From an uncultured Acidimicrobiales bacterium (GTDB taxonomy: Bacteria; Actinomycetota; Acidimicrobiia; Acidimicrobiales; SZUA-35), in contig CALAJQ010000023.1 of assembly GCA_937922785.1 (NCBI GenBank), forward strand, positions 186,001 through 250,000: DNA of 64,000 bases. Direction: 5' to 3'. The notes under the pieces were generated by a model. It ran no database searches, was not told where the DNA came from, and saw only the letters and a list, made by a program, of their open reading frames with translations. Both the position numbers and the translations under genes were made by a program. Positions 17,563 through 24,041 of the stretch are shown here, in pieces (within the stretch, counting starts at the first letter, position 1; each line of letters begins with the position of its first letter).

Positions 17563-18012
17563 TTAGGCGATGGGCGCGCATTCCTCGTAACCGTCTCCCA
17601 TTGGGCACTTCGGCGCAGGACGGCCTACGAGCATGAAACAGGATCCGCAGACAAACTCGGTGGCTCGCTTTGCGGGAACGCTGTTTGGGTCCGAGGGAAC
17701 AGGGGGCTCATCCTCATCATCGTCGTCATCATCAGATGAGGCCAAACGATCCTTAAGGATTGCATCGAGGTCAGCTTCGACGTCCTCTTCTTCCTCATCG
17801 TCATCGTCGTCGCCTGCGACTTTGCGGGCCGCTGGTTTGGCGTCCTCGTCCTCGTCATCATCGTCGTCGTCTGGGTCGACGTCGTCGTCTACGACGACGG
17901 CAAACTCATCATCGATGTCGCCATCGAGATCTGGATCCTCGTCAAGCTCAACGTCGTCGCCGTCGAGTTCTTCGTCTTCGATTTCTTCTACTAGATCTTC
18001 TTCGTCACTCAC
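17563..18012 (-). CDS. Highly acidic DUF4193-like protein with C-terminal Cys motif
   Basis: 149 residues; about 110 of them form runs of Asp and Glu. The end carries EFVCGSCFMLVGRPAPKCP, four Cys in a zinc-ribbon-like arrangement. The pairing of LDAILKDRL with FVCxSCFxLV recalls the actinobacterial DUF4193 family, whose function is not known to me. The Asp runs leave the complementary strand with a poly-Ser frame at 17633-18064, which is a shadow. Start ATG at 18012 is the first in frame. Confidence 0.78.
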   Translation of the reverse strand: MSDEEDLVEEIEDEELDGDDVELDEDPDLDGDIDDEFAVVVDDDVDPDDDDDDEDEDAKPAARKVAGDDDDDEEEEDVEADLDAILKDRLASSDDDDDDEDEPPVPSDPNSVPAKRATEFVCGSCFMLVGRPAPKCPMGDGYEECAPIA

Positions 18013-19129: not shown

Positions 19130-20809
19130 TTACTCACTCTCGGTGCGCTTCGCCTCCGCTCGGCGTTCTGCTTCGAGGCGTTCAAGATCAGTTTCTGACG
19201 AGTGATTTACATAAGTCATCATTGCCGCTATCGCCTTATGGCCAGCAACATCAGCAATCCTGTTGTGCATTTCCTGAGCCACAACTCGGTATGCCGGGTG
19301 GCCTTGAGGTGTACTGCGCAATTCGAGCATGTGCATTGCCGAACGGGCGTTGAGATTCATGTTGAATCGGACCCTGTATGCAAGTGAGACAGCGTAGGAG
19401 GCTTGGCTTGGGAAGTCCGCGGCAAGAGCATCATAAAGCGATGCTGAGCGCTCCATGGCTTCATCAAACTCCGGACCAATACCGGCACTATCAACGAGCT
19501 CGGGTCTTGTGTAGCCATGAAGCGAGCTGAGTGTCTGCCAATCCACGGTGAGCATCCGGTGCCGTTGCAAGTCCCTAAAGGCGCCGTAGTCGGCAAGTAC
19601 ATCGAAGCGATAGAACGGACGCTCAAGCGCTCGCCCGGGGCGATGACGCCGGTTCGAGCGGTTACCGGTATAGGCCTTAACGACACTCATCCGTTCGTCG
19701 TCAGTCATTGCCTCCACTTGACGCTCGATGCTGGCCTCGGACTCGTGTGAGTGTGGATAGAGCATTGAGGCAATCATCTTTACCTCAGCGTCGGGGTCAA
19801 AGTCGATTAGGTCAACTGTTGCGTCCTTGCTGGGCTCTGACGGTGTGATCAAAGTGTTGGCCAGCTCGTCCATCTCGCTGCGGATGTCAGCCATGTAACG
19901 GCTTGTAACTTCGCCTCGGTCAGGCAGGTCCACTCGTCTAACGAACGACGGGATGACCTTTCGCAATTCAGCCAACATTAGATCGGCGTAGTGTTGAGCC
20001 TCAGGGAGCGGATGGGATCGCATCCGCAGCAATAGTTGCTCATAGGCCTGACCGGAGCCATACATCCCGACGTTGCTTTGGGCAGCAGCCGGCAGAATTC
20101 CCCGGACTGCATCGAGAGACTTTGCCTTAACAGCAGTCCGATAGATGAAGTCCGAATCGCCAGCAGCCTTGGGGGTGATCTGCTTGACGTGTTCGGAGAC
20201 TATCGGAGCCAGCTCGGCATAGGTATCGAAGAGTCGATCCATATCTCCGACATAACGCGTCCCCAGCTCAGATCCCAGGATGTTCGGGTCCCTGTAGTAC
20301 CGGTAGCGGCCACCGTAACGTGCGTCGTAGGCGATGTAGCGAGTCGACTGTTCCAGATAGGACGCAAGCCTTCCCCATTCCAGAATCTTGGTCAGAAGGT
20401 TCGACGCCTGCTCACAAGCCAGGTGCACTCCCCCGAGCTGAGCGACCGAATCGTCTCCGTATTCGAAGAAGACCTTGTCATAAAGTTCTTCGGCCCGATC
20501 CAGCCCGATGGTGGCATCGATGTTCACATCGCCAGACACGTCTAGCTCCACCACAAACTCATCAAGGAACAGGCGGCGAAGGCTTTTTGGTGACCGTGAG
20601 TAGCGGGCGAACAATGCGCCCTTAACAACTTCCGGTAAGTTGACTAACGCAAAAACTGGCTTATCAAGATTCGTGAAGTACCGACGAAGAACGTCGGCCT
20701 CTTCATCGGAAAAATCCTCTACTACATATGCTCCCACAGCGATTGAGGCTATTCTCGATTGCACCTCAGAGGGCGGACGCAGGCAAATAAAGTCACTTAG
20801 CGGCCACAA
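19130..20809 (-). CDS. thyX: Tandem-domain ThyX-like (FAD-dependent thymidylate synthase) protein
   Basis: 559 residues, about twice a normal ThyX subunit, with two ThyX-like domains. Canonical ThyX carries RHRxxSxNExSxRY. Domain 1 has WGRLASYLEQSTRY (bases ~20333-20380), keeping the Ser/Glu/Ser/Arg/Tyr half. Domain 2 has QRHRMLTVDWQTLSS (near 19553), keeping RHR but losing the rest. ThyX reductively methylates dUMP with methylenetetrahydrofolate and FADH2. In classical enzymes the site is built from several subunits, so one composite site per fused chain is plausible (inference). The frame's first start is TTG at 20809; GTG at 20737 (then GAYVVEDFSDEEADVLRRYF) fits the domain start better. 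No good RBS at either. It follows the DAGK-like gene by 11 bp. Confidence 0.82.
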   Translation of the reverse strand: MWPLSDFICLRPPSEVQSRIASIAVGAYVVEDFSDEEADVLRRYFTNLDKPVFALVNLPEVVKGALFARYSRSPKSLRRLFLDEFVVELDVSGDVNIDATIGLDRAEELYDKVFFEYGDDSVAQLGGVHLACEQASNLLTKILEWGRLASYLEQSTRYIAYDARYGGRYRYYRDPNILGSELGTRYVGDMDRLFDTYAELAPIVSEHVKQITPKAAGDSDFIYRTAVKAKSLDAVRGILPAAAQSNVGMYGSGQAYEQLLLRMRSHPLPEAQHYADLMLAELRKVIPSFVRRVDLPDRGEVTSRYMADIRSEMDELANTLITPSEPSKDATVDLIDFDPDAEVKMIASMLYPHSHESEASIERQVEAMTDDERMSVVKAYTGNRSNRRHRPGRALERPFYRFDVLADYGAFRDLQRHRMLTVDWQTLSSLHGYTRPELVDSAGIGPEFDEAMERSASLYDALAADFPSQASYAVSLAYRVRFNMNLNARSAMHMLELRSTPQGHPAYRVVAQEMHNRIADVAGHKAIAAMMTYVNHSSETDLERLEAERRAEAKRTESE

Positions 20810-20820
20810 CTTTGGTTCAG

Positions 20821-21420
20821 CTAGGTAACTACCTTGAATTCGTCTGGCGCCAAGCTAAGCATTATGTGCTTGCCAGCGCCAATCGGCTGACCATCAAGGT
20901 ACAGGGGCGTCGACGCATCTAGCTCAAATTCGAAATCTTTGACACGCTTCGTGGTCAAGTTTGGGTGAGGCACGTGAGTCCCCAATCTGGCCCGCTTGCG
21001 AGCCAAGAGGCGCTGTTGCCAATTCAGCGTTCCGAACGTGATGTCCAAGAGGCCGTCGTTCGGATGAGCTCGAGGTCCGAGATAGAGGTCGCCAACCCAA
21101 GCTGCGTTCATTGCCACCAAACATTGGCCGGCCCATAAACGGTTGCGAGCTACCAGATGGGACACAAATGGAGCCGGCGCTGCTCCGTCAACCGATACAA
21201 ATCCGAGATCCATAGAGAACTCTAAACCCACCAAAGGCTCCGGAGTGCTCTCATAACCCATTGTGTTCAGGAGATCCCCAGCGGCAAGTCGCAGGACTGC
21301 TGGGGCCCCGTCAGCAGATCTAGAAGCCTTTGCCGCAGCATCGGCATCGCTCGTTGTCGGTGTGGGGGCGATATTGGGATCGGCTGGGCGTTCCCACAAC
21401 TGCCCTTTAGAAATCGTCAT
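20821..21420 (-). CDS. Stand-alone diacylglycerol-kinase C-terminal-like protein
   Basis: 199 residues. The C-terminal half (GPRAHPNDGLLDITFGTLNW, the basic RKRARLGTHVPHPNLTTKR region, then LYLDGQPIGAGKHIMLSLAP) resembles the C-terminal beta-sandwich of YegS/DgkB-type lipid kinases. The N-terminal catalytic domain with GGDGT is absent, so kinase activity is not expected. It may be a lipid- or nucleotide-binding remnant (inference). The start overlaps the helY stop by 4 nt, inside the tatB-tatC-helY run. Confidence 0.65.
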   Translation of the reverse strand: MTISKGQLWERPADPNIAPTPTTSDADAAAKASRSADGAPAVLRLAAGDLLNTMGYESTPEPLVGLEFSMDLGFVSVDGAAPAPFVSHLVARNRLWAGQCLVAMNAAWVGDLYLGPRAHPNDGLLDITFGTLNWQQRLLARKRARLGTHVPHPNLTTKRVKDFEFELDASTPLYLDGQPIGAGKHIMLSLAPDEFKVVT

Positions 21421-24041
21421 CGATCATCGGCATCAGCCGCTGGGTCTTCGGCCGGTAGCGAAACTACCGACGATGCTGCCAATAAATCTCGGAACATCAC
21501 CGACGCTGCTTGCCTCGCAGCGTCTTGGGTAGATGGCAATTCGGCCAGGGTGCCGAGCTGACGAAGGAGGTCGATCAGCTGCTTTGATGCCCGTACGAAG
21601 TCACCGGCGGTCATCTCTTCGCCATGGAGTACGTCGTCCAGATCTCCACCCATCGCCCAACCGTGTGCAATCGGGACGAACCCGGCGTCAGGTGCTTTGG
21701 TCTCGGGCAACCTGTGACGCCGTTCGTCCTTGACCAGGTTGTGGTGGAGGCGGACCATTGCCTCAAACCGTTTCCGAAGCTGATCGGACGGGAACCAGCG
21801 CCGCGGCTCAGGACCGGCACGCCGTTGCTCATAGGTCAGAACTGAAGCAAGTGCGGCCACTTCGGCACTATCTAGGCCGTCAAATAGCCCTTCTTCGAGC
21901 GCCTCAACTGCAAGCAGATCACACTCGTTGTAAAGCCTCGCCAGCCTTTGGCCGGATTGACTTAACGACCACCCATCCATGTGCCCACGCGACTCAAGTA
22001 AATCGGTGACCCGATCGAATTGGCGACCGAGGCTTTCCGCCTGTGCATTCACGGTGGACTGGGTTGCCCCGATCTCGTCCTCTATGGCTCTCAGCCGCTT
22101 TAGAGCCTTCTTGGCCTTCGGGGTTACCTCGGTTGCGTTAACAATCGAAGTGGTCGGCCCCAACTTGCGGCGGCGCTTGGCTGACAGAAGCCGGGCCTTT
22201 TTCATGAGCTCGACGACCTCGAAGGCAAAGGTCATGGAGTTTGGCAGGTACGGTTCGGGCAATTCGACGGTTGAGATGACTTCGGGCATTGCCTCAAAAT
22301 CATCGCTGGTCAATTCAAGCACGGTTACCTCAGCATCGACTGCCCTCAGCCTGACAGTCTTACCTTTGCGATATGCCACAGACAGGACCACGAGAGGTCC
22401 GCCGATGTCAGACGTTTTGGCGTCGATGACCTCGCCAGGGCGCAATTGCGAAAGCGCAAACGAAATGTCTTGCCGATCCGGTTCCACTGTGGCCTCGGTG
22501 GCCAAAGCGGCCCGCAGCTCCTCGACGGGGCCAAAGTCTGCAGCGATTCGGTTGGCTACTTGATTACGCCGCTCGACCAATCGCTCCACTTGGTGCTCTG
22601 ACCTGACGACGTCGGCATCGGCTCGGAATTGGGCGAAGCTGAGGTTTAGAAGCTGACGAGCCCGATCGGCGTCGTACCGTCGAACAAGGTTGGCGGCCAT
22701 GTTGTAGGTGGGCCGGAAGGCTGACGTCAGCCGGTACTCGGTGCTGGCCACCAAGTCGGCGACCTGACGGAAAGACACATAGGGACTCCACAGGACAACG
22801 GCATCTCCCTTCACGTCAATCCCCCGGCGACCTGCTCGCCCGGTGATCTGGGTGAACTGAGCCGGAGTCAAGAACTCATGGCCCTCGCCGGTGAACTTCG
22901 TGAGCTTCTCTATCACGACGGTTCTTGCCGGCATGTTGACGCCAAGAGCCAATGTCTCGGTGGCGAACACCACCCGGACCAGCCCCCGTTCGAAGCAGGT
23001 TTCGACGGCCTCTTTGAATGGAGGAACCATGCCTGCGTGGTGGGCTGCAATTCCTGCGGTCAATTGTTTTAGGAATCGGTCATATCCAAGGGTCTCAAGA
23101 TCTCCCTCGTCCATGTCCACAACATGGGCAGCGGCAATCCGCCGGATCTCATCCTGCTCGGCGGCTGAACACAGCACCAACCCCGAATCAGCCACGCTTC
23201 TGGCCGCCTCGTCACAGGCCTTGCGGCTGAAGATGAAATAGATCGCCGGCAAGAGGCTGCGCTGGGTCAGAGCGTTGATTACGTCTCGTCGGCCGGGGGT
23301 CCGGAACTTTACGGGCTGACGTCGACCGGCATGTTTGTTGCCTCGCCCCTTGTTCTTGTTGAGCTTGTCGAGGTCAAACCGAAAGCCGGCTTGGTTCGTC
23401 TTGCCGCCCTTCATGACCGGCAAGAAATGAGTCTTGGATCCCTTGCGGTCTGATGCCATGAACTGGTGTTCAAGCTGAACTGGGCGTTTGTTCTCAGTCA
23501 CCAAGGTCGTTGGGCCCCGGACTGTTTGAATCCAGTCAGCTAACTCATCTGCGTTTGAGACTGTTGCGCTAAGACACACCAAAGCGATGTGGCGGGGAAG
23601 ATGGATTATGACCTCCTCCCAAACCGGTCCTCGGTAGCTGTCTTGGAGGTAGTGAACCTCGTCCAAAACTACGCTGGCCAAACCTTGCAGTGCGTCGCCT
23701 GCGTACAGCATGTTCCGAAGCACTTCGGTAGTCATCACCACTACCGAAGCGCGTGGGTTGATGTTGTTGTCACCGGTCAACAAGCCCACGTTCTCAGCGC
23801 CATAGACCCCAGCCAAGTCTGCGAACTTTTGGTTGCTTAGCGCCTTGATAGGCGTGGTGTAGAAGACCCGGCTGCCGTTCTTTATGGCTCGGTGAACCGC
23901 ATAGCTGGCCACCAGTGTTTTTCCCGAGCCTGTAGGCGCTGCGACAACAACATGTTTACCTTCGTCGATCGCTTCGAACGATTCGAGCTGAAACCTATCG
24001 GGCTTGAAATCGAGACCTTCAACAAACTCGTGGTGCATCAC
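21417..24041 (-). CDS. helY: Ski2/Mtr4-like DEVH-box helicase HelY
   Basis: 874-residue superfamily II helicase of the actinobacterial HelY type, likely acting on structured RNA. N-terminal RecA domain: VVAAPTGSGKTLVASYAV, TTPIKALSNQK, VVVMTTEVLRNML, VVLDEVHYLQD (DEVH), CLSATVSN. Second domain: AIYFIFSRKACDEA, AHHAGMVPP, VFATETLALGVNMPART, ITGRAGRRGID. A winged-helix and ratchet-like C-terminal region extends to the end (DGWSLSQSGQRLARLYNECD; AMVRLHHNL). Its start overlaps the tatC stop by 4 nt, the usual actinobacterial tat-helY order. Confidence 0.95.
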   Translation of the reverse strand: MMHHEFVEGLDFKPDRFQLESFEAIDEGKHVVVAAPTGSGKTLVASYAVHRAIKNGSRVFYTTPIKALSNQKFADLAGVYGAENVGLLTGDNNINPRASVVVMTTEVLRNMLYAGDALQGLASVVLDEVHYLQDSYRGPVWEEVIIHLPRHIALVCLSATVSNADELADWIQTVRGPTTLVTENKRPVQLEHQFMASDRKGSKTHFLPVMKGGKTNQAGFRFDLDKLNKNKGRGNKHAGRRQPVKFRTPGRRDVINALTQRSLLPAIYFIFSRKACDEAARSVADSGLVLCSAAEQDEIRRIAAAHVVDMDEGDLETLGYDRFLKQLTAGIAAHHAGMVPPFKEAVETCFERGLVRVVFATETLALGVNMPARTVVIEKLTKFTGEGHEFLTPAQFTQITGRAGRRGIDVKGDAVVLWSPYVSFRQVADLVASTEYRLTSAFRPTYNMAANLVRRYDADRARQLLNLSFAQFRADADVVRSEHQVERLVERRNQVANRIAADFGPVEELRAALATEATVEPDRQDISFALSQLRPGEVIDAKTSDIGGPLVVLSVAYRKGKTVRLRAVDAEVTVLELTSDDFEAMPEVISTVELPEPYLPNSMTFAFEVVELMKKARLLSAKRRRKLGPTTSIVNATEVTPKAKKALKRLRAIEDEIGATQSTVNAQAESLGRQFDRVTDLLESRGHMDGWSLSQSGQRLARLYNECDLLAVEALEEGLFDGLDSAEVAALASVLTYEQRRAGPEPRRWFPSDQLRKRFEAMVRLHHNLVKDERRHRLPETKAPDAGFVPIAHGWAMGGDLDDVLHGEEMTAGDFVRASKQLIDLLRQLGTLAELPSTQDAARQAASVMFRDLLAASSVVSLPAEDPAADADDR

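Follow-up and report, generated by a model that had tools for sequence, protein, structure and literature searches.

The flavin-dependent thymidylate synthase ThyX (Pfam PF02511, Thy1), known from Thermotoga maritima (TM0449), Mycobacterium tuberculosis and Helicobacter pylori, is a one-domain protein; wherever a ThyX structure has been solved, it shows a homotetramer whose four sites are equivalent. One site receives contacts from three subunits; in M. tuberculosis numbering, subunit A gives R95/H96/R97 and R199, subunit B gives S71 and R190, and subunit C gives R87, S105, R107 and Y108 (PMC6514825). In T. maritima terms, the share of subunit A is R-H-R with R174, and that of subunit C is E86, S88, R90 and Y91 with an arginine that binds phosphate. 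In the T. maritima enzyme, R78, R80, S88 and R90 contact deoxyuridine monophosphate (dUMP) (PMC3498832); R174 activates dUMP, and mutants of S88, R90 and Y91 consume the carbinolamine more slowly and are impaired in the methylene-transfer step (PMC8316439). A duplication of the ThyX domain has been reported, as uncharacterised, in Chloroflexi (Valas and Bourne 2009, PMC3224940). Here we describe a gene for a tandem ThyX in a 64,000-nucleotide stretch (the window) of a contig from an uncultured Acidimicrobiales bacterium (CALAJQ010000023.1), whose two Thy1 domains carry opposite halves of the ThyX active site. We consider it highly probable that this gene provides the thymidylate synthase of the cell, as a tandem ThyX in which two fused chains would form a pseudo-tetramer with two composite and two dead sites.

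The window protein matches Thy1 over two stretches (E = 3.1e-35; 122.1 bits vs a gathering score of 24.8), and the claim of the initial annotation that two ThyX-like domains hold the halves of the signature in opposite domains is confirmed by Pfam, by reading of the motifs and by the alignments of 85 and 31 sequences presented below. Domain 1 reads E-W-G-R-L-A-S-Y-L-E-Q-S-T-R-Y and domain 2 reads Q-R-H-R-M-L-T-V-D-W-Q-T-L-S-S, so that the contiguous RHR-x7-S(-x-R-Y) motif that characterizes a canonical ThyX domain is found in neither. Domain 2 keeps QRHR without the right half, as had been noted; the loss in domain 1 concerns R-H only, and the third arginine of RHR persists there in 26 of 31 tandem proteins. 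The split also exceeds the signature, with the equivalent of T. maritima R147 in domain 1 only and that of R174 in domain 2 only. An alignment accident is excluded, because hhalign (E = 1.7e-18 for domain 2 against one-domain ThyX) sets both domains on one-domain ThyX in a register identical to that of the MAFFT alignment.

All of the residues by which subunits A and C contact dUMP and flavin adenine dinucleotide (FAD) are present within the tandem protein. The A set occurs only in domain 2, apart from the third RHR arginine, retained as well by most domain 1 sequences; the C set is confined to domain 1, where it comprises a T. maritima-type R147 at the place of the M. tuberculosis R87. Judged by these residues, domain 1 is the putative subunit-C half, and domain 2 the putative subunit-A half, of one canonical site. 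Because the two sets sit in opposite domains, a site with domain 2 as A and domain 1 as C would be complete, and the reverse one almost empty; since each copy lacks the half of the active site that the other retains, working sites would form only at contacts between the two copies, and neither domain could build a complete site as a homotetramer of its own. From homology, we infer that both halves of the motif meet in space. The tandem protein thus resembles canonical ThyX in its overall set of substrate and cofactor residues, in the fold shared by domain 2 (Z 17.0) and in its apparent genomic role as sole thymidylate synthase, but canonical ThyX is a one-domain homotetramer with four identical sites, whereas the tandem has two domains per chain, each lacking half of the site, and two sites would be expected per four domains.

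By analogy with canonical ThyX, we infer the oligomer, the binding of FAD and dUMP and the catalysis as follows. An ancient duplication or fusion would have been followed by the retention, in each domain, of one half of the canonical active site, which restricts domain 2 to the role of A and domain 1 to that of C. The four-domain tetramer would then be made up of a pair of fused chains, with two complete FAD/dUMP sites, each made of domain 2, domain 1 and a third domain, and with two degenerate sites, which may now be structural or regulatory. Ordinary ThyX chemistry would be expected, the methylene passing from methylenetetrahydrofolate via N5 of FAD to dUMP, with reduced nicotinamide adenine dinucleotide phosphate (NADPH) as reductant.

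The tandem protein is encoded in 40 of the 41 genomes searched, that of the window included, and at 60 loci of a named collection, mostly from Acidimicrobiales and Microthrixaceae. At the level of the order (numbering from TTG 20809), E153, S155, R157, Y158 and R236 of domain 1 and Q415, R416, H417, R418, N487, R489, H493 and R498 of domain 2 are invariant in 85/85 sequences. The more distant tandem set covers further Actinomycetota lineages, Parabacteroides, Euzebya, Miltoncostaea and Paenibacillus plasmids, and phages of Tunturiibacter, Vibrio and Microcystis. The partition is exceptionless in a set of 31 tandem proteins, some of them only ~25% identical, drawn from Actinomycetota, a Bacteroidota plasmid, plasmids of Paenibacillus and large phages. 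All 31 carry E, S, R, Y and R147 in domain 1, where the R174 position is occupied by M or L; in domain 2, R-H-R is present in all 31 and R174 in each of the 30 that are readable, and S88, R90, Y91 and R147 are not kept. Alignment A3 (44 sequences, the most distant 22% identical to the window protein) contains 28 invariant columns, including E129, S131, R133, Y134, R212, R392, H393, R394 and R474 (residues being counted here, and wherever the TTG numbering is not stated, from GTG 20737). A tree of the domains unites the domain 2 sequences (support 0.986), with one-domain ThyX standing between them and domain 1; because domain 2 groups together and apart from domain 1, the tree points to a division of labour that is older than the spread of tandem ThyX.

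The window comes from a draft genome of 45 contigs, which might suggest that the split is an artefact of assembly, frameshift or alignment. This is hardly credible, given that the same protein recurs in nearly all of the genomes searched and in complete plasmids and phages, and that the hhalign and MAFFT registers agree; conservation across independent assemblies refutes it.

Among the distant members, the thymidylate synthase of Microcystis phage LMM01/MaMV (PHROG 36506) is a two-domain ThyX with the same split (L151), and its BFVD model aligns over the whole chain; it differs in being a phage gene product of 491 aa, ~25% identical. No relative was recovered when viral sequences were scanned with A1, the Tunturi_5 protein or two DNA patterns. 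A Parabacteroides distasonis plasmid (L144:2983-4602) carries a tandem ThyX with 47% identity, far from the actinobacterial members, and the actinobacterial genome G079 has two tandem ThyX genes (L125, L126) and four Thy1 matches.

The initial annotation had raised the possibility of a canonical ThyX or ThyA elsewhere in the genome. In hidden Markov model (HMM) searches of the window genome, which is 95.7% complete, we found no Thy1 protein besides the tandem and no ThyA. The genome also encodes a dTMP kinase (thymidylate kinase), a dUTPase and a dihydrofolate reductase (DHFR) with a score just below the cut-off, the latter in line with ThyX-type folate use. The window protein, a single chain with two ThyX domains and no further thymidylate synthase found beside it, agrees with the duplicated ThyX of Chloroflexi, likewise with two ThyX domains per protein and the sole thymidylate synthase in those genomes (PMC3224940); the two very likely belong to the same family. 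A full-text literature search, which covered a minority of subscription papers, returned no description of the split site. The Chlamydia ThyX (Griffin et al. 2005) may likewise be tandem, at ~530 aa.

Across the class, the tandem is present in 169 of 197 genomes. The 28 others comprise 19 with a full-length ThyA, eight small genomes with a one-domain ThyX, which shows a complete RHR...S.RY motif in the four of these eight that were translated, and one in neither count. Full-length ThyA occurs in 20 class genomes, of which only G354 also has the tandem, so that canonical synthases and the tandem are almost mutually exclusive. In a phylum sample, 71 genomes had two Thy1 matches, and among them a strong ThyA match was seen only in G227, where it is split by an insert. 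The tandem appears to be the only thymidylate synthase of the window bacterium and of nearly all its relatives, and no evidence on function in this analysis is stronger than the mutual replacement between it and ThyA or one-domain ThyX. In G227, a member of the same class with an intact tandem ThyX elsewhere, thyA (L185:466-2390) is interrupted by ~1 kb containing a small open reading frame (ORF) that resembles a GIY-YIG-type homing endonuclease; it looks like an intron-bearing gene of phage type.

Structure prediction, proposed in the initial annotation as a check, covered the single chain, in which both domains look ThyX-like. Domain 1 was unreliable in a first AlphaFold model of the tandem protein; a second model, with viral tandem proteins added to the alignment, reached a predicted local distance difference test score (pLDDT) of 83.7 and a predicted template modelling score (pTM) of 0.83, and DSSP gave a ThyX-like order of strands and helices in both domains. 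The ThyX fold is assigned to domain 2 by structural alignment and to domain 1 by DSSP order and profile match only. Among viral models, those that match best along the entire chain belong to phage proteins with two domains. Searches of solved structures gave nothing with the single sequence and weak hits only with a profile. PolB, a ThyX-like UMP/dUMP C5-methylase of polyoxin biosynthesis (4p5a/4p5b), also has the ThyX fold (Z 14.7 to domain 2), but it is one-domain, with ~235 residues in the solved chain, and the window gene lies in a housekeeping neighbourhood and not in a biosynthetic cluster.

Several observations weigh against a composite-site thymidylate synthase. First, residues of the third subunit are distributed irregularly: domain 2 carries N163/R165 in Actinomycetota and Bacteroidota, and domain 1 carries an N-x-R or an R in the forms from Paenibacillus and Tunturi_5; the S71/T55-type serine (GHxS) is invariant in domain 1 and the B-type arginine lies in domain 2 of the window protein; and actinobacterial domain 1 has an aspartate at the equivalent of T. 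maritima H53. Together with the fact that pseudoenzyme partner domains are common, these B-type residues without a clean rule would fit a thymidylate synthase with one catalytic domain, the other being a scaffold whose motif is kept for structural reasons. We regard this as very unlikely, since no single domain has the full A and C set in any of the 31 proteins and both halves stay invariant at ~25% identity, including S131 and Y134, which have catalytic roles in canonical ThyX. Second, the window protein scores 43.8 against the NCBIfam ThyX equivalog TIGR02170, below the cut-off of 87.9; a thymidine kinase is encoded in the genome, so that dTMP could in principle be supplied by salvage; the test on the class genomes (Fisher p = 1e-18) was computed with related genomes treated as independent; domain 1 by itself was unmatched in structure searches, in which only domain 2 aligned, although this is not evidence of a different fold; and Corynebacterium glutamicum ThyX is, according to the titles of structures 3ge9/3fnn, not required for thymidylate synthesis, so that a ThyX fold alone proves nothing.

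The low NCBIfam score, the thymidine kinase, the dispensability of ThyX indicated by those titles and adjoining genes that are not nucleotide genes would suit a pseudo-ThyX that has taken on some new task dependent on flavin or nucleotides, with thymidylate obtained by salvage or from an unseen synthase. Such a protein seems very unlikely to us: the dUMP-contact and catalytic residues are still invariant and have merely moved to one of two domains, ThyA or one-domain ThyX replaces the tandem and almost never accompanies it, RefSeq labels the distant members FAD-dependent thymidylate synthase, and one phage copy of tandem thyX adjoins a dCMP deaminase gene. The initial annotation had offered both a composite site and a new flavin-dependent role. 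The former, arising by complementary loss, has good support, because the kept residues sort by known subunit roles, the split spans phyla and phages and no other ThyX or ThyA was found in the genome; the new role is disfavoured, because the tandem, ThyA and one-domain ThyX stand in for one another in the class with hardly any overlap.

An assignment of subunit B to domain 2 as well was considered and dropped, as the GHxS serine is in domain 1 and N163/R165 are swapped in Paenibacillus and Tunturi_5. An R165-type FAD contact is seen in domain 1 of the Paenibacillus and Tunturi_5 forms (L147:405-1991, L148:1405-2991, L149:592-2148), hinting at third-subunit arrangements that differ between these and the actinobacterial forms.

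The fused form of ThyX, each half of which would be dead alone, appears to serve a large group of bacteria and phages, and the split accounts for the poor scores of tandem proteins against standard family models. This matters for annotation, as the full ThyX motif is in neither half and yet the gene looks essential. More tentatively, and in our view less likely than not, tandem ThyX may be a widespread class of synthases whose ancestor was a homotetramer with four sites and which complementary loss has made into a pseudo-tetramer bound to work with two, the dead ones having found a new use, such as allosteric binding of FAD or nucleotides. If true, nature would here provide a clean example of an essential enzyme that passed irreversibly from a homo-oligomer to a fused hetero-oligomer, common to bacteria and phages. 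Tandem ThyX also offers a simple test of how complementary loss can lock a duplicated enzyme into one chain.

The ORF at 19130-20809 on the minus strand is an uninterrupted, real frame. Its start had been placed at TTG 20809; the true start is probably GTG 20737, as the conserved part of the relatives begins at a GTG or ATG in the matching column and, in most of them, a TANNNT box precedes this codon at an equal spacing of 8 nt. The position of the box suggests a leaderless transcript, and its conservation as a promoter suggests that tandem thyX is transcribed from its own start.

Table 1. Coordinates of the tandem thyX gene, its domains and motifs, and its neighbours in the window (Tm, T. maritima numbering)
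Feature	Position	Strand	Evidence and remarks
Tandem ThyX coding sequence, probable true extent	19130..20737	-	535 aa, GTG start, stop included; open frame and start column common to relatives
TAGCCT, TANNNT -10-like box	20746..20751	-	8 nt upstream of GTG 20737 (box and codon span 20735-20751)
Domain 1 (Thy1), half with subunit-C residues	19946..20500	-	Pfam Thy1 8.5e-16; hhalign to one-domain ThyX E = 1.9e-20
Domain 1 motif W121-G-R-L-A-S-Y-L-E129-Q-S131-T-R133-Y134	20336..20377	-	E129, S131, R133, Y134 = Tm E86, S88, R90, Y91; R-H lost; E, S, R, Y in 31/31 tandem proteins
R212 of domain 1 (= Tm R147)	20102..20104	-	31/31 in domain 1; not kept in aligned domain 2 column
Domain 2 (Thy1), half with subunit-A residues	19247..19804	-	Pfam Thy1 5.6e-17; VIA-align Z = 17.0, root-mean-square deviation 2.3, 191 residues, to T. 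maritima ThyX 3g4a_B
R392-H393-R394 of domain 2 (= Tm R78-H79-R80)	19556..19564	-	31/31
Domain 2 N463-A-R465-S-A-M-H469-M-L-E-L-R474 (= Tm N163, R165, N169, R174)	19316..19351	-	R474 in 30/30 readable; N463/R465 in most, absent from phage and Paenibacillus forms
YegS_C domain protein (lipid-kinase-like C-terminal part), upstream neighbour	20821..21420	-	Pfam; near thyX in 48/59 loci; not part of enzyme
HelY/DSHCT-type DEAD-box helicase, neighbour	21417..24041	-	Pfam; near thyX in 48/59 loci; not part of enzyme

The location near helY pointed out in the initial annotation is real and conserved, helY and the YegS_C gene accompanying thyX in 48 of 59 loci, but it says little on function. A very acidic protein of 149 aa, rich in Asp and Glu and with no Pfam match, is encoded at 17563-18012 (minus strand), and its relatives lie near thyX in 9 of 59 loci.
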